Below the pieces are notes generated by a model. It saw nothing but the letters and a program-made list of their open reading frames with translations, was not told the origin of the DNA and made no database searches. The position numbers and the translations under genes were made by a program. From Pseudomonadota bacterium (lineage in GTDB: Bacteria > Pseudomonadota > Gammaproteobacteria > Burkholderiales > Burkholderiaceae_C): DNA of 64,000 nucleotides. Below are positions 52,900 to 64,000 of this stretch, in pieces; positions within the stretch are counted from its first letter, which is position 1; every line of letters starts with the position of its first letter. The DNA is taken from contig JADFIG010000006.1 of the NCBI GenBank assembly GCA_022566735.1, positions 1 through 64,000 of the forward strand, in the 5' to 3' direction.

Positions 52900-53026
52900 G
52901 ACCTCTCCCTAGACTGTGTCCGAAACTCGTACAGGGAGAAGGTCTTTGGGTGCGCACCTCGCGTCCGGTGGTTGGTTGTTCGGCGCGAAGCACCCGACCC
53001 AACACCCCGGCAGCACCTCTCGTCGC

Positions 53027-56000
53027 ATGGATCGGCTGGCCGTGGGGGCCTGGGCTCTGTCGCGCCTGCTGCGTCCGCTGCTGTGCATGCTGGCCGCCCT
53101 GGTGACCGCGCTGTGGCCGTCCCTGTCGGCCGCGCAGACGGCTGTCAGCGGTGCCATCAACGCGAACACCCGCTGGACCCTCTCCGGCAGCCCCTACCTG
53201 GTGGCTGACAACCTCTACGTCAACGGCGGCGCCACGCTGACCATCGACCCCGGTGTGGTGGTCTACATGGCCAATGCGACGCGCCTGCAGGTGGTGTCCG
53301 GCGCGGTCGTGGCCGTGGGCACGGCGACCCAGCCCATCGTGTTCCAGTCCGACAAGGTGCGCCAGGGCCAGGCCCCGGCGGCGGGTGACTGGGGGCCCTG
53401 GCTGTTCACGCCGGGCACGCTGCCGACCAGCCGCCTGGCGCACGTGCGCTTGCAGCACGGCAAGGGCATGGTCATCGAGGCGTCTTCGCCGGTGCTCAAC
53501 CACGTCGAGTGGCAGATGCACCAGGGCGCGGCCCTGACGGTCGATCTGCAGTCCTCGCCCTCGGGGGTGGGCCTGAAGGCCTCGGGGTGCGACCTCAACG
53601 GCATCGCCGTGCCTGCGGGCGACCTGACCGGCTCGGTCAAGTGGTCGCTGCGCGGCATCCCCTATGTGGTCAGCTCGGGCCGGGTGTCGGTGGGGGCCTC
53701 GCCGGCGCTGACCTCGGTGTCGCCCGCCTCGGTGGAGCGCGGCCAGACCGTGACGCTGATGGTCAACGGTGCGCGCCTGGGGGGCATGACCGCGCCCAGC
53801 TTCGACCGCGGGGGCCTGGCCCTGACGCCGTTCAGCGGCGGCTCGGCCTCGCAGGTCTACCTGCAACTTCAGGTCGCCGCCGATGCCCCGCTGGGCCAGG
53901 CGGCGCTGCGCATGCAGGTCGATGCCGGCGAGCTGCTGCTGCCCAATGCCATCACCGTGACGCCGCCCTTGCCGGCCATCACCGCGCTGTCGCCGACCTC
54001 GGTGCTGGCCGGTGCGGGCCTGAGCACGCTGACGGTGCAGGGGCGCAATTTCACCTCCGCCTCCGAGGTGCTGGCCAATGGCGCGGCCCTGCCGACCACC
54101 TGGGTCAGCGCGGCCGAGTTGCGCGCCAGCCTGCCCAACCAGACCGCCACGGGCACGTTGCAGATCCAGGTGCGCACGCCCGACGCCACGCCTGGCCAGT
54201 ACCTGAGCTCCGGCCTGGCCTCGCTGTCGGTGCAGGCCCCGACGCCGCCGACCGTGACGGTCGAGCCCACGCCGATCGCGCTGCCGCCCGATGGCCGCCC
54301 GCGTGACCTGACGCTGCGCCTGTCCAAGGCCGATTACCGCGACAACACCATCGCCCTGTCGGTGTCCGACACGAGCAAGGCCTCGGTGTCGCCGGCTTCG
54401 GTGACGATCCCGGCGGGCCAGACTTCGGCCAAGTTCACCGTGACGCCAGGAACGACCGCGGCCACCCTGAGCCTGGTGGCGGACTCGGCCACCCTGGCCC
54501 GCGTGTCGGTGCCCGTGTTCCTGACGGCGGATTTCCGCGGGGCCAACACCAGCTATGCCCAACCCGTGGGCGTGGTGGTGGCGGTGGCGCCTGGTCAGGT
54601 CACGCGCAGCGTGCAGCTCGGCAACAGCCTGGTGGGGGTGTCGGTCGGCGCGGTGCTGACGTCGGCCCAGCCTCAGGCCTGGCCGGTGGGCATCAAGCAG
54701 GTGCTCACCGTGGCCGGCCGTGGCATCGCCAGCGGTGCGACGGTGGCGATCGAGCCGGCCAGCGGCCTGAGCCTGGGCCCCGTGTCGGTGGCCGCCGATG
54801 GCAGCAGCCTGCAAGTCGAGGTCGACACCGCGGCCGCTGCGCCGGTGGGCGTGCGCCGGGTCATCGTCAAGGATGCGGCGGGCAAGCTGCTGACCTTCGC
54901 CGACGCCTCGCGGGCTGTGGTGCAGATCGTGGCGGGCCTGCCGGTGGTCGACTCCATCGAGCCGGCCACCGCGGTGCGCGGCGGCGCCATCAACCTGGTG
55001 GTGCGCGGCCGCAACCTGCAGCAAGGCCGCGTGCAGATCCTGCCGGCCGAGGGCCTGGCGGTGGACGCGCAGCCGGTGGTCAGCGCCGATGGCACGACCC
55101 TGACGGCGCGCGTGGACATCGCCGCTGCGGCCGTGCTGGGCAGCCGCGTGGTGCAGGTGCTGACGCCGGCCGGTGCGACCACCGAACAAGCCCTGGCAGG
55201 CAACACCCTGACCGTGGGCCAGACGGCGCGTCCGGCCGTGACCCCGGTGACCGCCCCGGTGGTGGGCGTGGTCGTCGGCCAGGCCAGCCGCACGCCCGAT
55301 CCGCAGGTGCGCCAGTTCGGCGCCGGCCTGGTGGGCGTGATGAGCGGCACCGGCGTGAGCAGCGTGACGCCGCGCACCGGCGTGATCGGCACCGACGTGG
55401 TCGTGCAGGTGGCGGGGTCGGGCCTGAGCTCGGTGACCGCGCTGAACTTCGTGCCCGCCGACGGCCTGACCGTGCTGTCCGGCCCGACGCCCTCGGCCGA
55501 TGGCAAGCAGCTGAGCTTCACGGTGCGCGTCGATGCCACGGCGCCGCTGGGCCTGCGCCGCCTGGTGCTGAAGAACGCCACGGGCCTGCCGGTGACCTTC
55601 TCGCGTGCGGAGGATGGCGCTTTCCTGGTGTCGGCCCCGATCCCCGAGCTGATGTCGGTGTCGCCGGCCATCGTGGTCAGCGGCCAGTCGGCCGTGCGCA
55701 TGACGGTGCGTGGCCGCAACCTGACGAACACCTCGGCGGTGCGCGTGGTGCCGGCCGATGGCATGACGGTGTCCGGCCCCTTCGAGGTGAGCGCCGATGG
55801 CACGACCCTGGGCTTCACGATGTCGGCGGCGTCCGGCGCGACGTCCGGCCCGCGTGCGCTGGTGGCGAGCTCGCCTGCGGGTGAGTCGGCGACCACGCTG
55901 ACGGCAGGCAACATGGTGCGCGTGGCCGCCCAGCTGGGCAACACCTACGAAGCCATCACGGCGCCGATGGTCGGTGTGGTGGTGGGCTCGGCCAGTGTCC

Positions 56001-56713
56001 GCCGCGACCCGGTGGACGGCACGCTGATGAGCCGCGTGGTCGGGGTGCAGGTGGGGGCGGCCCAGCCGCCGGCCGATCCGCTGCCGCGTGCCGCCTTCGG
56101 CCTGCCGGTTGGTGTCAGCCGTGGCCCGGTGGCCCAGTCGATCAGCCCGCGTGGCTTCCTGCAGGGCAGCTCGGACAACCTGGTGGTGCAGGGCCGGGGT
56201 CTGGATGCCGTGACCAGCGTGAGCATCCGCCCCGACACCGGTGTGCTGCTGGGCACGCCCGCCGTGTCGGCCGATGCCGGCAGCCTGAGCGTGTCGATCT
56301 CGGTGGCGCCCGACGCCCCGCTGGTGCAGCGTGAACTGCGCCTGGTGACCGCCAACGGCCCGATCGTGTTTGCCGACGCGGGCACCAGCCGAACGATCGG
56401 CATCGGCAAGCTGCCCACGCTGACGTCCATCAGCCCGATCCTGATCGAGCAGGGCAAGGGCGTGACCCTCAGCCTGCGCGGCAAGGACCTGGCCGGCGTG
56501 ACCGGCGTGACCTTCGCCCCTGCCGATGGCCTGAGCGCAGCGCCCGCCATGACCTGGACCACCGACGCCCTGGGCGAGTTGCTGACGGTGTCCGTCACCG
56601 CCACCTCTGCCGCGCCTTTGGGCGAGCGCGCCCTGATCCTGCTGGTGCCGGGTGGCCAGACCACCGCGACGCCGAGTCCGGCCAACACCCTGAAGGTGAT
56701 CGCGCCGCAGTGA
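53027..56713 (+). CDS. Large secreted repetitive protein: N-terminal beta-helix-like segment, IPT/TIG-like repeats and 'VGVVVG' linkers (alternative start 52916)
   Basis: Signal peptide ending SLSAAQ; repeated ...VSPASVERGQTVTLMVNGARL / ISPILIEQGKGVTLSLRGKDLAGVTGVTFAPADGL; three VGVV(V) linkers. Confidence 0.85.
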   Translation: MDRLAVGAWALSRLLRPLLCMLAALVTALWPSLSAAQTAVSGAINANTRWTLSGSPYLVADNLYVNGGATLTIDPGVVVYMANATRLQVVSGAVVAVGTATQPIVFQSDKVRQGQAPAAGDWGPWLFTPGTLPTSRLAHVRLQHGKGMVIEASSPVLNHVEWQMHQGAALTVDLQSSPSGVGLKASGCDLNGIAVPAGDLTGSVKWSLRGIPYVVSSGRVSVGASPALTSVSPASVERGQTVTLMVNGARLGGMTAPSFDRGGLALTPFSGGSASQVYLQLQVAADAPLGQAALRMQVDAGELLLPNAITVTPPLPAITALSPTSVLAGAGLSTLTVQGRNFTSASEVLANGAALPTTWVSAAELRASLPNQTATGTLQIQVRTPDATPGQYLSSGLASLSVQAPTPPTVTVEPTPIALPPDGRPRDLTLRLSKADYRDNTIALSVSDTSKASVSPASVTIPAGQTSAKFTVTPGTTAATLSLVADSATLARVSVPVFLTADFRGANTSYAQPVGVVVAVAPGQVTRSVQLGNSLVGVSVGAVLTSAQPQAWPVGIKQVLTVAGRGIASGATVAIEPASGLSLGPVSVAADGSSLQVEVDTAAAAPVGVRRVIVKDAAGKLLTFADASRAVVQIVAGLPVVDSIEPATAVRGGAINLVVRGRNLQQGRVQILPAEGLAVDAQPVVSADGTTLTARVDIAAAAVLGSRVVQVLTPAGATTEQALAGNTLTVGQTARPAVTPVTAPVVGVVVGQASRTPDPQVRQFGAGLVGVMSGTGVSSVTPRTGVIGTDVVVQVAGSGLSSVTALNFVPADGLTVLSGPTPSADGKQLSFTVRVDATAPLGLRRLVLKNATGLPVTFSRAEDGAFLVSAPIPELMSVSPAIVVSGQSAVRMTVRGRNLTNTSAVRVVPADGMTVSGPFEVSADGTTLGFTMSAASGATSGPRALVASSPAGESATTLTAGNMVRVAAQLGNTYEAITAPMVGVVVGSASVRRDPVDGTLMSRVVGVQVGAAQPPADPLPRAAFGLPVGVSRGPVAQSISPRGFLQGSSDNLVVQGRGLDAVTSVSIRPDTGVLLGTPAVSADAGSLSVSISVAPDAPLVQRELRLVTANGPIVFADAGTSRTIGIGKLPTLTSISPILIEQGKGVTLSLRGKDLAGVTGVTFAPADGLSAAPAMTWTTDALGELLTVSVTATSAAPLGERALILLVPGGQTTATPSPANTLKVIAPQ

Positions 56714-56784
56714 CCTTGATGCACCTGATTGCCATGAATTCCGTCTTCACCCCTTCCTTTCACCTTCTCACGAGGAGCCTGTCC

Positions 56785-58344
56785 ATGAACACTTCATCTC
56801 CCAAGCTGAAGCTGGCTCCGAGGCTTGGCGCCTCGGCTGTTTTTGCCCTGTCCCTGCTGGCCGCTGCCTCGGCCCAGGCCGCATTCGACAGTGGCAGCAC
56901 GGGTGCCGATGGCGCCCTGAACCCCACGGTCAACACCGAGATCGTGCTGCCCGCCAGCGGCGTGCTGAACTACACCAGCATCAACATCCCCGCCGGCGTG
57001 ACGGTGACGTTCAAGAAGAACACCACCAACACCCCGATCTACCTGCTGGCCAGCGGCAACGTGACGATCGCCGGCACCATCGACATCCGCGGCGCCGATG
57101 CCAAGGCCACCGGCACCTATGGCGATGGCGCCCTGGGCGATGACGGCATCCCCGGTGCCGGCGGCCCTGGCGGCTTCGACGGTGGCCGCGGTGGCCGTGA
57201 CGATGCGGCGCAGCGCGTGGACATCGTCCGCGGTGGCGGCGGCCTGGGCCCGGGCGGCGGCCGTGGTGGCATCGAAGGCGGCAACGGCTGCGTCAACGAC
57301 GGCACCAGCTACTTCAAGTACGAGGCTTCCGGCGGCGCCTATGCCGACAGCACCTGGGGCTACTACGCCAGCAGCTACTGCGATGGCAACTACCGCACCA
57401 ACCTCGTTCCCTCGGCCAAGTCCTATGGCTCGGCCCTGCTGCAGCCCCTGGTGGGCGGATCGGGCGGCGGCGGTGGCCGTGGCGGCACGACCTACCCGGG
57501 CTCGGGCGGCGGCGGCGGCGGCGGCGCCATCCTGATCGCGGCCTCGGGCACCATGTCCGTGACCGGCACCATCGACGCCACCGGCGGTGACGCGGGCGGC
57601 CTGGCGGGCACGGGCGCGGGCGGCTACGGCGCGGGGGGCTCGGGCGGCGCGGTGCGCCTGATGGCCACGTCCATTGCCGGCAACGGCAAGCTCTACGCGG
57701 CCGGTGGCTGCATGAACTACAACAACACCCGCCGCCAGTACTGCGGCATCACCGGCTCCGGCAGCTCGCGCGGCGGCGCCCCGGGCCGCATCCGCCTGGA
57801 AGCCGAAGCCATCACCTTCAATGGCACCGCCGACCCGGCCTACAACAAGGACGTGCCGGGCCCGGTGTTCCTGGCCGACGCGCCTTCGCTGCGCATCGCT
57901 TCGGTGGCCGGCCAGGCCGTGCCGGAGAACCCCACGGGCAATGCCGACGTCACCCTGCCGGCCGACACCACCACGGCGGTGGAAGTGACCTTCCAGACCC
58001 GCAACGTGCCGGTGGGCAACACCGTGCTGCTGCGCGTGGTGCCGGCTTACGGCAAGCCCACCGAGGCCATCACCCCGGCCATCGCGGGCACGGCGGCCGC
58101 GGGCACGGCGGCCGTCTCGGTGGTGCTGCCTTCGGGCCCGAGCACCCTGCAGGCCACGACGACCTACACCGTGGTGGTGGCGGGTGATCTGGACCTGTCG
58201 CGCTTCGCCCAGAACGAGGCGGTGGACAAGGTCGAGGTGACCGTGTCCCTGCATGGCGAAACCCGCACCCGCGTGCTGACCGCCAGCGGCAAGGCCTACG
58301 ACGTGCCTTACCGCGCGCTGCTGGCCGCGGGCTTCCGCGGTTGA
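56785..58344 (+). CDS. Secreted Gly-rich surface protein
   Basis: Signal peptide; GVTVTFKKNTTNTPIYLLASGNVTIAGTIDIRGADA; GGSGGGGGRGGTTYPGSGGGGGGGAILIAASGTMSVTGTIDATGG. Confidence 0.85.
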   Translation: MNTSSPKLKLAPRLGASAVFALSLLAAASAQAAFDSGSTGADGALNPTVNTEIVLPASGVLNYTSINIPAGVTVTFKKNTTNTPIYLLASGNVTIAGTIDIRGADAKATGTYGDGALGDDGIPGAGGPGGFDGGRGGRDDAAQRVDIVRGGGGLGPGGGRGGIEGGNGCVNDGTSYFKYEASGGAYADSTWGYYASSYCDGNYRTNLVPSAKSYGSALLQPLVGGSGGGGGRGGTTYPGSGGGGGGGAILIAASGTMSVTGTIDATGGDAGGLAGTGAGGYGAGGSGGAVRLMATSIAGNGKLYAAGGCMNYNNTRRQYCGITGSGSSRGGAPGRIRLEAEAITFNGTADPAYNKDVPGPVFLADAPSLRIASVAGQAVPENPTGNADVTLPADTTTAVEVTFQTRNVPVGNTVLLRVVPAYGKPTEAITPAIAGTAAAGTAAVSVVLPSGPSTLQATTTYTVVVAGDLDLSRFAQNEAVDKVEVTVSLHGETRTRVLTASGKAYDVPYRALLAAGFRG

Positions 58345-58387: not shown

Positions 58388-61300
58388 ATGACCACGCGCG
58401 CCCCTTCCATCCTGCACCGCACCCCACTGGCTGAGCGCCGCGGCTCGGCCCCGGTGTGGGCTGCCGCGTGGGCGCCGGTGCGCGCGATGGCGGGCGCGGT
58501 GGCGCTGGGGCTGCTCGGCGCGGCGGCGGCCGTCGGTGTGGGTGGGGCTGCCCATGCGGCCGACCTCACCCTGGACGAGGGCGTGGTCGTCAAGTTCGGG
58601 GCGGGCGCCCAACTGGTGGTGCGCGACCGCCTGGTGACGCAAAGCGGCGTCATCCTGACCAGCCAGAACGACGATGGCGTGCTGGGCCCCAGCTTCGCGC
58701 AAGCCCGCACGCCCGCGGCCGGCGACTGGCTGGGCGTGCGCGTGGAGAAATCCGTCACCGGCTTCGGTGGCGTGTCCTTCAGCGACATCCTCATCAAGCA
58801 CGCGGGCGAGCGCGGCGAGCCGGCCCTGTTCCTGCGCGCCAACAGCCCGCAGCTGCAGTATTTCCAGGTCAGCGACAGCGTGCTGGGACTGCGCCTGGTC
58901 GACGGCGCCAAGCCGGCCATCAGCGGCGCGAGCTTCCTGCGCAACGGCGTGGGCCTGGAGGCCGATGGCATCAGCGGCCTGGGCATCACGAGCACGCAGT
59001 TCTCGGGCAACACCACGCAGGCCATCCTCAACAAGACGCCGGCCTCGCTGATCACGGCCACGGGCAACTGGTGGGGCCACGCTTCGGGCCCGAAGGATGC
59101 GGCAGGCAACCCGGCGGGCCTGGGCGACGTGGTGTCGGGCGGGGTCAGCTATGGCGGCTTCCTGTCGAGCGCGCCGCTGCTGGCGCCGTCGGTGCGCATG
59201 GCCCAGCCAGTCAGCTACGTCGAGGACCGCACGGTGGCGCTGGAGCTGTCGTGCATCAACGCCAGCGAGTACCGCCTCGTCGAAGGCACCGGTTTCGTCG
59301 GCGTGCCTTTCCAGACCTTGAGCAATGGCCGCACCTCGGTGAACTTCACTGTCTCCGAGGGCGATGGCCGCAAGCCGATTTCCGTCCAGTACCGCAACGC
59401 GACCGGCACGGTCACCACGGCCACGCTGGCCAACGGTGTGCTGGTGGACACCCAGGCGCCGGTGGTGGTGCTGAGCAACCCGGCCGAAGGCAGCGTGGTG
59501 AGCGCGTCCATCACGGTGGAGGCCGCCGTGAGCGACGCCTCCGGCGTGGCCAAGGTCGAGTTCTACCTCGACGACAAGCTGGTGAGCACGCGCACGGCAG
59601 CGCCCTACACCTATGCCTGGAACACCGACACCACGACCGACGGCAGCCACACCTGGCGCGTGGTCGCCACCGACATCGCCGGCCGCACCACCACGCTGAG
59701 CCGCCCGACCCTGGTCAGCCGCGCGCCTGTGGCGCCGGACGTCGAGGGCCCGGTGCTGACCGAGGTGGCGGCGGGCGGGCTGGCCCTGGCCAACGGCGCG
59801 AGCTTTGGCCGCGATGTGGCCCTGAGCCTGAAGGCGAGCGACCGCAGTGGCGTGTCGCGCGTGGAGTGGTTGCTCGATGGCGCCGTGGTGGCCACGGCCT
59901 CCGGCAGTGGCAGCTACAGCGCCACCCTGGCCCTGGGCGCCGTGCCCAATGGCGCGCACATCCTGGCGGTGCGCGCGACCGACTCGCTCAACAACACCAG
60001 CACCAGCAGCTACAGCGTGACCGTGGCCCACGTGGCCCCGGACGCGCCCAGGCTGAGCAGCCCGGCAGCCGGCACGGTGACCCGCGTGGCCGAGGCCACC
60101 GTCAGCGGCACGGCCCAGCCCGGCAGCACGGTGCAGGTGACCATCAACGGCGCGCCGGTGGGCCCGCAGGCCACGGCGGGCAGCGACGGGCGCTTCTCGC
60201 AGCTCATCACGCTGTTGTCCGGCGTCAACCAGCTGCAGGCCAGCGCCACCGACGCCTGGGCCACCAGCGCGCTGTCGGCGGTCCTGACCGTGACCCTCGA
60301 CCAGACCGTGCCGAGCGCCCCGGGCGCGCTGACGGCCAGCTCGCAGGCCCTGGGCAAGGTGCGCCTGTCCTGGTTGAAGTCCACGGACGCCAACGTCACC
60401 GGCTACCAGCTCTACCGTGCGGCCCAGCCTTTCGCGGCGATCAGCGAAGGCGTGCGCGTGGGCGGCAACCTGAGCGCGGCCACGCTGGCCTACGAGGACC
60501 TGCCCGCACAGCAAGGCACCTGGTACTACCGCGTCGTGTCGGTCAATGCCGCAGGGGCCACGTCCGACCCGAGCAACCAGGTCCAGGCCTTGTCGGATGC
60601 GGCCGCACCGCGCGCCACCGCGATCGCCTACACGCCGCTGGGCAAGGTGGACGCCGCTACGGGCCGCATCGGCCAGGGCCGCGTCAACGTGGTCGTGACC
60701 GTCAGCGAGGTGCTGCAGTCCGCACCCTACCTGTCCATCGTCCCGCAGGGCGGCTCGCCCCTGCCCGTGGACCTCGTCAAGACCGGTGACTTCACCTACG
60801 CCGGCAGTTTCCTGGTGGACGCCAGCACCGCTTCGGGCCTGGCCAACGCGCTGTTCTCGGCGCGCGACGTGGTGGGCAACCGCGGCACCGAAATCGACGC
60901 GGGCGCCACCCTGAAGATCGACACCGACGGCCCGGCGGTGACCGCCATCGCGCTGTCGCCGACCGCCCCGATCAAGAACGACACGGCGCAGACCCTGCAA
61001 GCCACCTTCACCTACAGCAAGGCCCTGCGTGCCGGCGCCCAGCCCGCGCTGAGCTACCTGCTGTCGGGCCCGGTGCGCACCTCGGTGGCCATCACCAGCC
61101 TGACCCAGGTGGATGCGCTGACCTGGCGCGCCAGCTTCACGCTGCCGTCGGACGCCGGCCTGGGCGGCTCGGAGAACCTGAGCTTCGCTTCGCAGGCGGT
61201 CGATGACCTCGACAACCTCTCCACCAAGGTCACGGCGCTCAACCGCTTCCAGGTCTACCAGGGCAGCCTGCCGCCGCTGAACGTGCCCCTGGGCTTCAAG

Positions 61301-64000
61301 GCCGTGGCCCAGCCGGGCGGCAAGGTCGCCCTGAGCTGGCAGGCCGTGGCCGAGGCCAGCGCCTACCAGGTCTACCGCCAGGGCCCGGACGACACCGAAT
61401 TGCGCGCCCTGGTGCGCACGGCCGGCGACAGCCTGATCGACACGACCCCGCGCGACGGCAGCTACCGCTATGCCGTGGCCACCGTGCGCTCGTCCAATGG
61501 CCAGGAGTCGGTCTCCAGCCAGAGCGTCACCCTCGACGTGCTGGCCAGCGCCACCGCGCCGGGCGCGCCGCAGAACCTCGCGCTGCAGCTCACCGGCCAG
61601 GGTATCGTCGCCACCTGGCAGGCGCCGCAGGCCAGCACGGTCGCGGGCTACCGCCTCTACCGCGCTGCGGGCACCAGCATCACCAGCATCGCGGGCCTGA
61701 CACCGCTGAAGTCCGGCATCGTGCAGACCGCCGCCCTCGACACCGCGCCGTCGCCGACCCAGGGCGCCTACGTCGTGACCGCGGTGGATGCCGCCGGCAA
61801 CGAATCGGCCTTGTCGAACTCGGCCTACCTGAACGCCAGCCTGCTGCCGGTGGCCAACCTCAAGGTCCAGCAGATCGGCAAGGAACTGCCCGTGGTCAGC
61901 TGGGATGCGCCCAACGGCAACCTGGCCGGCTACCTCGTCTACGTCGGCCCGGACGCGGCCAAGGTCAAGCTGACCCCGGCCGTCACCAGCAGCCGCACCC
62001 TGACCGACAGCGGCTACACCAGCGGCGAGCGCCGCTACACCGTGGCCTCGGTCGATGCGGCCGGCGTGGAGATGCCGCGCAGCGTGCTGCTGCCGGCCGT
62101 CAGCACCCAGATCGCGTCGGGCTTGCCCATCAAGCGCGGCGTGATGAACAAGCTCGGCGTGCAGGTGGTGAACCTGTCGGCCAGCCCGCTGGCGGGTGTG
62201 CGCGTGGTCGTCAAGCTGCCCACCGACAAGGCCGTGACCCAGTTCAAGGAGCACCGCTCCGACGCCTTCACGCTGGCGGCCAACGAGACGCGCATCGTCC
62301 CCGTGATCGTGGGTGGTTATGCGGAGCTGCCCGGCTCGGCGCCCTCGCAGATCGGCGTGGAGATCGCGGCCCACGAGGGCGAGCTCGTCAAGCTGGCCCG
62401 CGACGAGACCCTGTCCGTGACCGACGGCGCCCTGGTCGTGGGCATGGCCACCGACGCCTTCACCCGCGGCGGCACCGGCCAGCTGCGCCTGACCATCGAG
62501 AACACCAGCGAGGTCGATGTCGAGCTGCTGACCGCCACCAACAACGGCAACAGCGAGTCGTCGGAGCTGCGCTTCAAGATCCTCGACGCCGATGGCAACG
62601 TGCTGTCCACCCAGTCGTACAAGCAGGCCCTGGGCGCCCAGGTGGTCACGCTGACGAATGGCCTGACCGTGGCGCGCATCCCGGCCGGCCAGAGCTACAC
62701 CTCGGACGCATTCACCCTGAACGTGCCCGGCGCCAGCCCGAACAACATCCGCGTGCGCCTGGAGGTGGACAAGCTGCGCTACCACTCCGGCCAGGACGAC
62801 CAGGTCATCATCCCGGGCCAGGGTTCGGAGAAGCTGGTCTCGCTGCTGGACACCGCCTACCTGGGCGATGTCACCGACGTGAGCCCGGCCAACTCCTTCG
62901 GCGACCAGGACGTGCTCATCACCGGCCGTGCGCTGGACCGTGCCTCGCGCGGCCCGCTGCCCAACACCCGCCTGAAGCTGGTGCTCAACCAGCAGGGCTT
63001 CGAGCGCACCTTCAGCGTGCTGACCGATGGCACGGGCCAGTTCTTCCACACCTTCAAGCCGACGGTGACCGATGCCGGCCTGTTCAAGGTCTCGGCGGTG
63101 CACCCCGACATCACCGACCGGCCCGAGCAGAAGGCCTTCACCATCAACCGCGTGACCGTGGGCCCGGCGCCTTACAAGCTGGACATCCCGCGCAACTACG
63201 CCTTCACCATCCCGTTCACGGCCAAGGCCGGTCCGGGCACGGCGGCCACCAACCTGCGCCTGGTGCTGAACGCGGCCAGCCAGCCCACCGGCCAGCTGCC
63301 TGCCGGCGTCAGCGTGCAACTGCCCGTGCCGGTGAGCCTGGCCGAGCGCCAGACCCTGAACGTGCCCGTGGTGTTCAGTGCCAACAACGAGGCCCAGCCT
63401 TCGGGCTCGCTGATCCTGGACGTGGTCTCCGACGAGCAGCCGCTCAACCCGATCGGCCGGGTGGCGGTGAACTACACCCTCTCGATCGCCAAGCCCAACC
63501 TGACGTCCACGCCGAGCTTCGTCGAAACCGGCCTGGCCCAGGGCAGCAGCCAGATCGAATCCGTCGAGGTGCGCAACAACGGCCTGCAGGACGCGCTCAA
63601 CCTGCGCTTTGCGCTGACCGGCACGGACGGCTCGCCCGCGCCGGCCTGGGTCGCCATCGCCAGCCGTGCCAATGGCAGCCTGGCCGTCGGCGAGCGCCGC
63701 AGCATCGACCTGTCCTTCTCGCCGCCGGCGGGCACGCCCGAGGGTGTCTACGAGTACCGCCTGACCGTGGCCGGCGACAACGTGCCCACGCAGTCGCTCA
63801 ACGTCTACGTGAGCCTGACGCAAAGCGGCCAGGGCCATGTGCTGTTCAAGGCGGCCGACATCTACACCGCCACCGTGGACAAGCAAGGCAAGCTCATCCC
63901 CGGCCTGGCCGGTGCCCGCGTGACCCTGCAGAACGAGGACGTGCCGACCATCACCCAGGAGCTCAACACCGATGCGCTCGGCGAGGCCCTGTTCCAGAAC
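58388..64000 (+). CDS. Giant secreted multidomain protein (beta-helix-like head, Ig-like and fibronectin-III-like repeats, CARDB/carboxypeptidase-regulatory-like modules), open at window end
   Basis: Own translation from ATG 58388, no stop to 64000 (>1871 aa): ...PVVVLSNPAEGSVVSASITVEAAVSDASGVAKVEFYLDD...; TVPSAPGALTASSQALGKVRLSWLKSTDANVTGYQLYRA; PGAPQNLALQLTGQGIVATWQAPQASTVAGYRLYRAAG. Confidence 0.9.
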   Translation, partial: MTTRAPSILHRTPLAERRGSAPVWAAAWAPVRAMAGAVALGLLGAAAAVGVGGAAHAADLTLDEGVVVKFGAGAQLVVRDRLVTQSGVILTSQNDDGVLGPSFAQARTPAAGDWLGVRVEKSVTGFGGVSFSDILIKHAGERGEPALFLRANSPQLQYFQVSDSVLGLRLVDGAKPAISGASFLRNGVGLEADGISGLGITSTQFSGNTTQAILNKTPASLITATGNWWGHASGPKDAAGNPAGLGDVVSGGVSYGGFLSSAPLLAPSVRMAQPVSYVEDRTVALELSCINASEYRLVEGTGFVGVPFQTLSNGRTSVNFTVSEGDGRKPISVQYRNATGTVTTATLANGVLVDTQAPVVVLSNPAEGSVVSASITVEAAVSDASGVAKVEFYLDDKLVSTRTAAPYTYAWNTDTTTDGSHTWRVVATDIAGRTTTLSRPTLVSRAPVAPDVEGPVLTEVAAGGLALANGASFGRDVALSLKASDRSGVSRVEWLLDGAVVATASGSGSYSATLALGAVPNGAHILAVRATDSLNNTSTSSYSVTVAHVAPDAPRLSSPAAGTVTRVAEATVSGTAQPGSTVQVTINGAPVGPQATAGSDGRFSQLITLLSGVNQLQASATDAWATSALSAVLTVTLDQTVPSAPGALTASSQALGKVRLSWLKSTDANVTGYQLYRAAQPFAAISEGVRVGGNLSAATLAYEDLPAQQGTWYYRVVSVNAAGATSDPSNQVQALSDAAAPRATAIAYTPLGKVDAATGRIGQGRVNVVVTVSEVLQSAPYLSIVPQGGSPLPVDLVKTGDFTYAGSFLVDASTASGLANALFSARDVVGNRGTEIDAGATLKIDTDGPAVTAIALSPTAPIKNDTAQTLQATFTYSKALRAGAQPALSYLLSGPVRTSVAITSLTQVDALTWRASFTLPSDAGLGGSENLSFASQAVDDLDNLSTKVTALNRFQVYQGSLPPLNVPLGFKAVAQPGGKVALSWQAVAEASAYQVYRQGPDDTELRALVRTAGDSLIDTTPRDGSYRYAVATVRSSNGQESVSSQSVTLDVLASATAPGAPQNLALQLTGQGIVATWQAPQASTVAGYRLYRAAGTSITSIAGLTPLKSGIVQTAALDTAPSPTQGAYVVTAVDAAGNESALSNSAYLNASLLPVANLKVQQIGKELPVVSWDAPNGNLAGYLVYVGPDAAKVKLTPAVTSSRTLTDSGYTSGERRYTVASVDAAGVEMPRSVLLPAVSTQIASGLPIKRGVMNKLGVQVVNLSASPLAGVRVVVKLPTDKAVTQFKEHRSDAFTLAANETRIVPVIVGGYAELPGSAPSQIGVEIAAHEGELVKLARDETLSVTDGALVVGMATDAFTRGGTGQLRLTIENTSEVDVELLTATNNGNSESSELRFKILDADGNVLSTQSYKQALGAQVVTLTNGLTVARIPAGQSYTSDAFTLNVPGASPNNIRVRLEVDKLRYHSGQDDQVIIPGQGSEKLVSLLDTAYLGDVTDVSPANSFGDQDVLITGRALDRASRGPLPNTRLKLVLNQQGFERTFSVLTDGTGQFFHTFKPTVTDAGLFKVSAVHPDITDRPEQKAFTINRVTVGPAPYKLDIPRNYAFTIPFTAKAGPGTAATNLRLVLNAASQPTGQLPAGVSVQLPVPVSLAERQTLNVPVVFSANNEAQPSGSLILDVVSDEQPLNPIGRVAVNYTLSIAKPNLTSTPSFVETGLAQGSSQIESVEVRNNGLQDALNLRFALTGTDGSPAPAWVAIASRANGSLAVGERRSIDLSFSPPAGTPEGVYEYRLTVAGDNVPTQSLNVYVSLTQSGQGHVLFKAADIYTATVDKQGKLIPGLAGARVTLQNEDVPTITQELNTDALGEALFQN

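Follow-up and report, generated by a model that had tools for sequence, protein, structure and literature searches.

A conserved valine-glycine repeat unit in the linkers of a secreted TIG protein that heads an RHS cassette, and its possible role as docking strands

Among described systems, the closest to the protein considered here are the IPT/TIG domain (PF01833) and the choice-of-anchor Z repeat (CoaZ_rpt_PGGG, NF058597), which its domains of ~90 aa resemble, whereas the linkers between these domains are covered by neither model. RHS/YD-repeat proteins (PF05593, TIGR01643, TIGR03696) and polymorphic toxins share a common cassette with it, and its distant orthologues carry N-terminal YD repeats; nevertheless, the protein itself has no RHS match in Pfam or NCBIfam and its linkers are not YD-like. 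Elastin-like sequences and titin PEVK springs are likewise Val/Gly/Pro/Ala-rich segments of low model confidence that connect Ig-like domains, and a repeated VGV is similar to the hydrophobic repeats of elastin. Unlike these entropic springs, the linkers described below have a conserved strand core and a conserved spacing. Donor-strand or beta-augmentation peptides, such as pilin N-terminal extensions, offer an analogy in the form of a short alternating-hydrophobic strand lying outside its own domain, although the present protein has no chaperone/usher or pilin match.

The window, that is, the whole 64,000-nucleotide stretch of DNA analysed, carries the gene on its forward strand (G, C and L numbers are our handles for genomes, contigs and loci). 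The likely start is the ATG at 53027 (MDRLAV...), followed by a signal peptide, judged by eye, to about ...SLSAAQ; an anchor was not seen at the C-terminus. The features of the gene and its neighbours are as follows.

52916 to 56713, + strand: open reading frame of the secreted TIG/VG protein, 1265 aa (ORF list and translation)
53132 to 53710, + strand: N-terminal module in which 'GGATLTIDPGVVVYM'-type strands are abundant, beta-helix-like by eye (alignment)
53972 to 54199, + strand: top Pfam TIG match, residues 353-428 (PF01833, E 8.3e-16)
54518 to 54646, + strand: linker 1, two VG units, V codons 54566 and 54632 (AlphaFold2 pLDDT <50, residues 1-43 of the 731-aa model)
54647 to 55225, + strand: TIG pair 1, with a1 at about 54647-54934 and b1 at about 54935-55225 (super-repeat alignment, AlphaFold2)
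55226 to 55351, + strand: linker 2, two VG units, V codons 55262 and 55331 (low AlphaFold2 pLDDT, no Pfam match)
55352 to 55930, + strand: TIG pair 2, a2 and b2 (super-repeat alignment, AlphaFold2)
55931 to 56122, + strand: linker 3, three VG units, V codons 55970, 56039 and 56108 (AlphaFold2 pLDDT about 26, residues 472-535 of the 731-aa model)
56123 to 56710, + strand: TIG pair 3, a3 and b3, with the C-terminal end ...LKVIAPQ (translation, AlphaFold2)
56710 to 58344, + strand: P0002, glycine-rich secreted protein of 544 aa, co-inherited (translation, homologue searches)
58388 to 64000, + strand: P0003, giant Ig/fn3-like secreted protein, ending beyond the window at about G000:C43:64747 (translation, domain scan)

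A sequence-only reading of this gene had described three phased copies of a VG motif and proposed a composite super-repeat, in which a paired VGVxVG linker without a named domain alternates with TIG-like units. The G codons at 54569, 55265 and 55973 (V codons of the first VG at 54566, 55262 and 55970) are confirmed, the copy spacings of 696 and 708 nt are exact, and the quoted peptides are found in the translation. The super-repeat is real, copies 2 and 3 aligning end to end with the first at 38% and 34% identity. A linker repeat does exist, but it consists of a smaller unit, '[A/S]-P-[L/V]-V-G-V-x-V-G', of 22-24 aa, which occurs in 2, 2 and 3 tandem copies in linkers 1, 2 and 3 rather than as one pair per super-repeat; since linker 3 holds three units, 'paired' is not exact. 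The VG residues of the window protein are 551/573, 783/806 and 1019/1042/1065, with units 22-23 aa apart (codons at 54566, 54632, 55262, 55331, 55970, 56039 and 56108). By its residue pattern, in which valines alternate, the constant part [A/S]P[L/V]-VGVxVG resembles a short beta-strand. The linkers are almost uncharged, with V 21%, G 14%, A 12%, P 9% and D+E+K+R about 7%.

Searches for a known identity of the linkers returned nothing, as the earlier reading had supposed. Pfam scans of 24 linkers taken singly at E<=10 gave zero matches, the linker profile had none among PDB sequences at E<=10, and scans of whole proteins against Pfam and NCBIfam gave only TIG, CoaZ, Qn_am_d_aIII and RHS repeats, all outside the linkers. 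The linker repeat, the unit definition and the partner gene were without match in the libraries and literature searched; a literature search on cassettes combining TIG, RHS and T2SS gave nothing, and a search of viral contigs yielded nothing. The domains between the linkers are indeed TIG-like, with PF01833 at 58.2 bits (cut-off 20.9) and NF058597 at 109.6 bits (cut-off 30). The latter model covers five stretches at E 5.7e-32, and its match at residues 351-427 falls on the top Pfam TIG match. Pfam TIG exceeds its cut-off once in the window protein and in five stretches of the Rhizobacter orthologue. All six domains between or after the linkers are modelled by AlphaFold2 as Ig-like beta-sandwiches with pLDDT about 75-93, for which Foldseek with a two-TIG model against PDB gives generic Ig tandems only; a TIG pair has weak profile matches to titin Ig tandems. 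Tandem VG units were not found in other CoaZ loci from 300 genomes of the order. Taken alone, the linker repeat is a module without a name; the TIG part is already known.

The composite arrangement had been presented as a property of one protein; it is indeed composite, but it is a trait of a whole protein family. The window's genus appears to be Aquabacterium, as the nearest named record is from Aquabacterium sp. nzgw550 (85%). Repeat-bearing orthologues were found in G026, G041 (same genus as the window), Rhizobacter sp. SG703, Eleftheria terrae, G070/G950, G941, G975 and G879, as well as in G309 from another family of the order. The pattern of 2/2/3 units recurs in 9/9 orthologues, the window's included, while the identity of the repeat region falls to about 33-40%. 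Unit spacings in these nine are only 22, 23 or 24 aa (12, 17 and 7 cases). The unit alignment of the nine was anchored on VG, and the invariance of G is therefore partly by construction. The G070/G950 proteins are shorter, with two linkers, and some of their glycines are replaced (VTVNVG and VRVKVA in G070) with the alternating valines kept. The search for the linker in other proteins, once set as a check, also reached distant relatives: a linker-only profile (A7) run over 321 genomes of the class revealed the unit in three further gammaproteobacterial families (G1062, G1171 and G1233), which super-repeat alignments (A2 and A6) over samples of the order and phylum had missed. The G1062 protein is readable as 2/2/3 units with AGVAKG as the last; in that of G1171, the first units stand at residues 301 and 347, a distance of exactly two periods that encloses a degenerate stretch, and two and then three more follow; and that of G1233 (locus L099) has four tandem units within a single linker, indicating that the unit multiplies independently of TIG domains. 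Sequence searches against Pfam, NCBIfam and PDB do not see the VG motif, so that proteins carrying it go under the IPT/TIG name alone; the Eleftheria record is annotated merely as 'IPT/TIG domain-containing protein'.

At the codon level, the 21 VGV codons of the window compared with G041 are identical in 10 cases, synonymous in 11 and nonsynonymous in none; the corresponding counts are 9/11/1 against Eleftheria and 10/10/1 against Rhizobacter, whereas spacer codons are nonsynonymous in 30/40 and 31/40 in these two comparisons. The VGV core is under strong purifying selection, and what is constrained is the strand-core peptide and the spacing, not the spacer sequence. Pairs of [VL]G[VI] lying 21-25 aa apart number 4 in the window protein; when its sequence was shuffled 5000 times, such pairs averaged 0.09 and never exceeded 2. 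Chance or low complexity is ruled out by the shuffles together with the codon-level selection, and the remaining doubt about the repeat is gone because it is conserved in orthologues. It is very likely that the VG repeat represents a conserved module that has yet to be named.

The N-terminal module of the protein is also kept in relatives without VG repeats. In distant orthologues (L088:10376-13489, L090:11232-14315, L099 and L100), one or two YD (RHS) repeats stand in its place, which by sequence is an N-terminal swap within one putative TIG/VG family between YD repeats and a beta-helix-like module.

The TIG/VG gene heads a conserved cassette consisting of the TIG protein, P0002 and one or more giant Ig/RHS proteins, and the order TIG, glycine-rich, Ig/RHS is held in all VG-bearing loci read far enough. 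For P0002, a Pfam family above cut-off was not found. A homologue of it lies directly downstream in 13/13 VG-bearing loci tested besides the window, and the strong matches among 166 genomes of the family (G000, G026, G070, G879, G941 and G950) all come from VG-bearing genomes. A gene sharing only the N-terminal module was recovered in four species, of Pseudoxanthomonas, Hydrogenophaga, Lampropedia and Acidovorax. In the two read completely (L028:9854-14884 and L031:10191-12719), long tandem Ig-like repeats replace the VG/TIG part; L029 and L030 are cut by the locus or contig end, so that only L028 and L031 show with certainty that the gene lacks VG. P0002 is absent from these four whole genomes, in which the linker profile gave weak partial matches only. 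P0002 is inherited strictly together with the VG/TIG gene. Co-inheritance of this kind points to a joint function, and P0002 may be the partner of the VG/TIG protein; nevertheless, the same pattern could follow if both genes merely travel as one operon. Both G070 and G950 have two adjacent P0002 paralogues and one fewer VG linker.

Following P0003, the same strand carries an RHS protein (P0005), an Ig protein (P0006) and a second RHS protein (P0007). In P0005 (L003:4783-8370), encoded by the cluster's first RHS gene, a stretch of N (X in the translation) prevents reading through. P0007 (L003:12749-17611, equal to G000:C43:72748-77610) combines a signal peptide, judged by eye, with an HNH nuclease domain at its C-terminus, making it a candidate Sec-exported RHS polymorphic toxin. 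RHS genes lie downstream on the same strand in the window's own locus and in G026, G041, G070, G309, Eleftheria, Rhizobacter, G941, G975, G879, G1171, G1233 and G1062. The Eleftheria terrae cassette (NZ_CP106952.1) is located on a 784-kb linear record labelled plasmid, where an ankyrin-repeat gene, possibly an immunity gene, comes immediately after the RHS gene.

About 23-33 kb past the window's TIG gene, on the same strand, there is a T2SS-like operon (L094, G000:C43:79000-98900) with GspF, GspE, a secretin with TPR and a C-terminal cohesin domain, and pseudopilins. A related secretin lies 18-40 kb away on the same strand in G026, G041, G309, G941, Rhizobacter and others, and a T2SS-like neighbourhood also occurs in several other genera (loci including L095 and L011). 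In G975 and G879 the best secretin is far off or on another contig, and none came to notice among the ORFs listed around the G1062 locus; these three cases weaken a universal association with T2SS. We infer that the protein would be exported by Sec and then, judging by this neighbourhood, by the T2SS-like machine.

Taken together, these observations may be explained best, with guarded and less than even confidence, by a surface scaffold whose linkers would serve as beta-strands for docking, the probable partner being another cassette product. The gene product would be a secreted multi-domain Ig/TIG scaffold heading the RHS cassette, and its VG strands would gain order on joining a beta-sheet that is not part of their own TIG domains. 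This sheet would most likely be that of P0002, otherwise that of an RHS/Ig protein or one formed by the VG strands among themselves; TIG pairs would thereby be kept a constant distance apart on the cell surface, and the products of the cassette would assemble together. Docking is supported by the maintained 2/2/3 units and spacing, the selected VGV, the position of the linkers outside the predicted TIG folds and the co-inherited P0002, as well as by the V-x-V-x-V alternation that persists where G is lost and the three more families carrying the unit. It is weakened in that operon travel could explain the co-inheritance, low pLDDT is ambiguous and the composition suits an elastic spacer. That the VG unit docks to another cassette protein at all is plausible but still doubtful. 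A seven-strand composite domain built from the 2+2+3 units is not obligatory, as G070/G950 with only two linkers exclude an obligate assembly of this kind. It is rather unlikely that the units form a new class of tandem beta-strand docking repeats, each strand being donated in trans to P0002 or the RHS shell within a multi-protein surface complex that is built up at regular intervals along a TIG stalk.

The docking reading has to be weighed against structures that need no partner. In a cis beta-module, the 2-4 VG strands of one linker would pair mutually and pack between TIG b and TIG a, setting their angle. The regular strand-plus-loop spacing of 22-24 aa with two to four units per linker and the strongly conserved strand core are in its favour; the poorly conserved spacers would be unusual for a small compact fold relying on its own loops. 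Moreover, in both AlphaFold2 models all three linkers are practically strandless, with pLDDT 25-36 beside TIG neighbours at 75-93 (linker 2 at 25-37 over residues 237-278 of the 731-aa model and at 31-36 over residues 98-139 of the other). The underlying alignments were shallow, with 8 and 4 sequences, so that low pLDDT may reflect this rather than real disorder and a cis fold is possible; on balance we consider it unlikely, if a serious contender. The same low pLDDT, together with the nearly uncharged V/G/A/P-rich composition, would suit an elastic or flexible spacer, i.e. hydrophobic coils like elastin or titin PEVK that let TIG pairs move. Such a spacer needs neither a position-specific VGV core nor constancy, from family to family, in the number of units and their 22-24 spacing, and with 11 synonymous and 0 nonsynonymous VGV changes against G041 the linkers do not behave as elastin-like disordered spacers, making this explanation improbable. 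Degenerate YD/RHS-type hairpins that add to the RHS shell are very improbable. Their period of roughly 21-23 aa is shared by the units, distant orthologues open with YD repeats, one or two of them, ahead of the first TIG, and RHS genes come after the TIG/VG gene, but hhalign gives the linkers 0.03% probability against YD repeats and a sequence relation is unsupported. Finally, the possibility that the linker is a degenerate TIG, or a terminal strand belonging to the TIG fold next to it, is largely refuted and retains hardly any likelihood. The last unit of each linker runs straight into strand A of TIG a, as such an arrangement would have it; nevertheless, both AlphaFold2 models close the TIG sandwiches without the linker, the linker and TIG profiles compared by hhalign reach 0.6% probability, and the four tandem units in L099 multiply independently of TIG. 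Neither of the two outcomes named beforehand as refuting the earlier reading, a Pfam match of the linker or a place as terminal TIG strand, was obtained.

The whole protein belongs to a known kind, the secreted TIG proteins of RHS cassettes, and the linker repeat is novel within it. For many giant secreted repeat proteins in RHS clusters outside type VI secretion, we know of no assigned role. The VG unit provides a new motif for annotating secreted proteins of RHS cassettes, and a short, strictly conserved module with one specific co-occurring neighbour would offer a concrete contact point for RHS cassette assembly.
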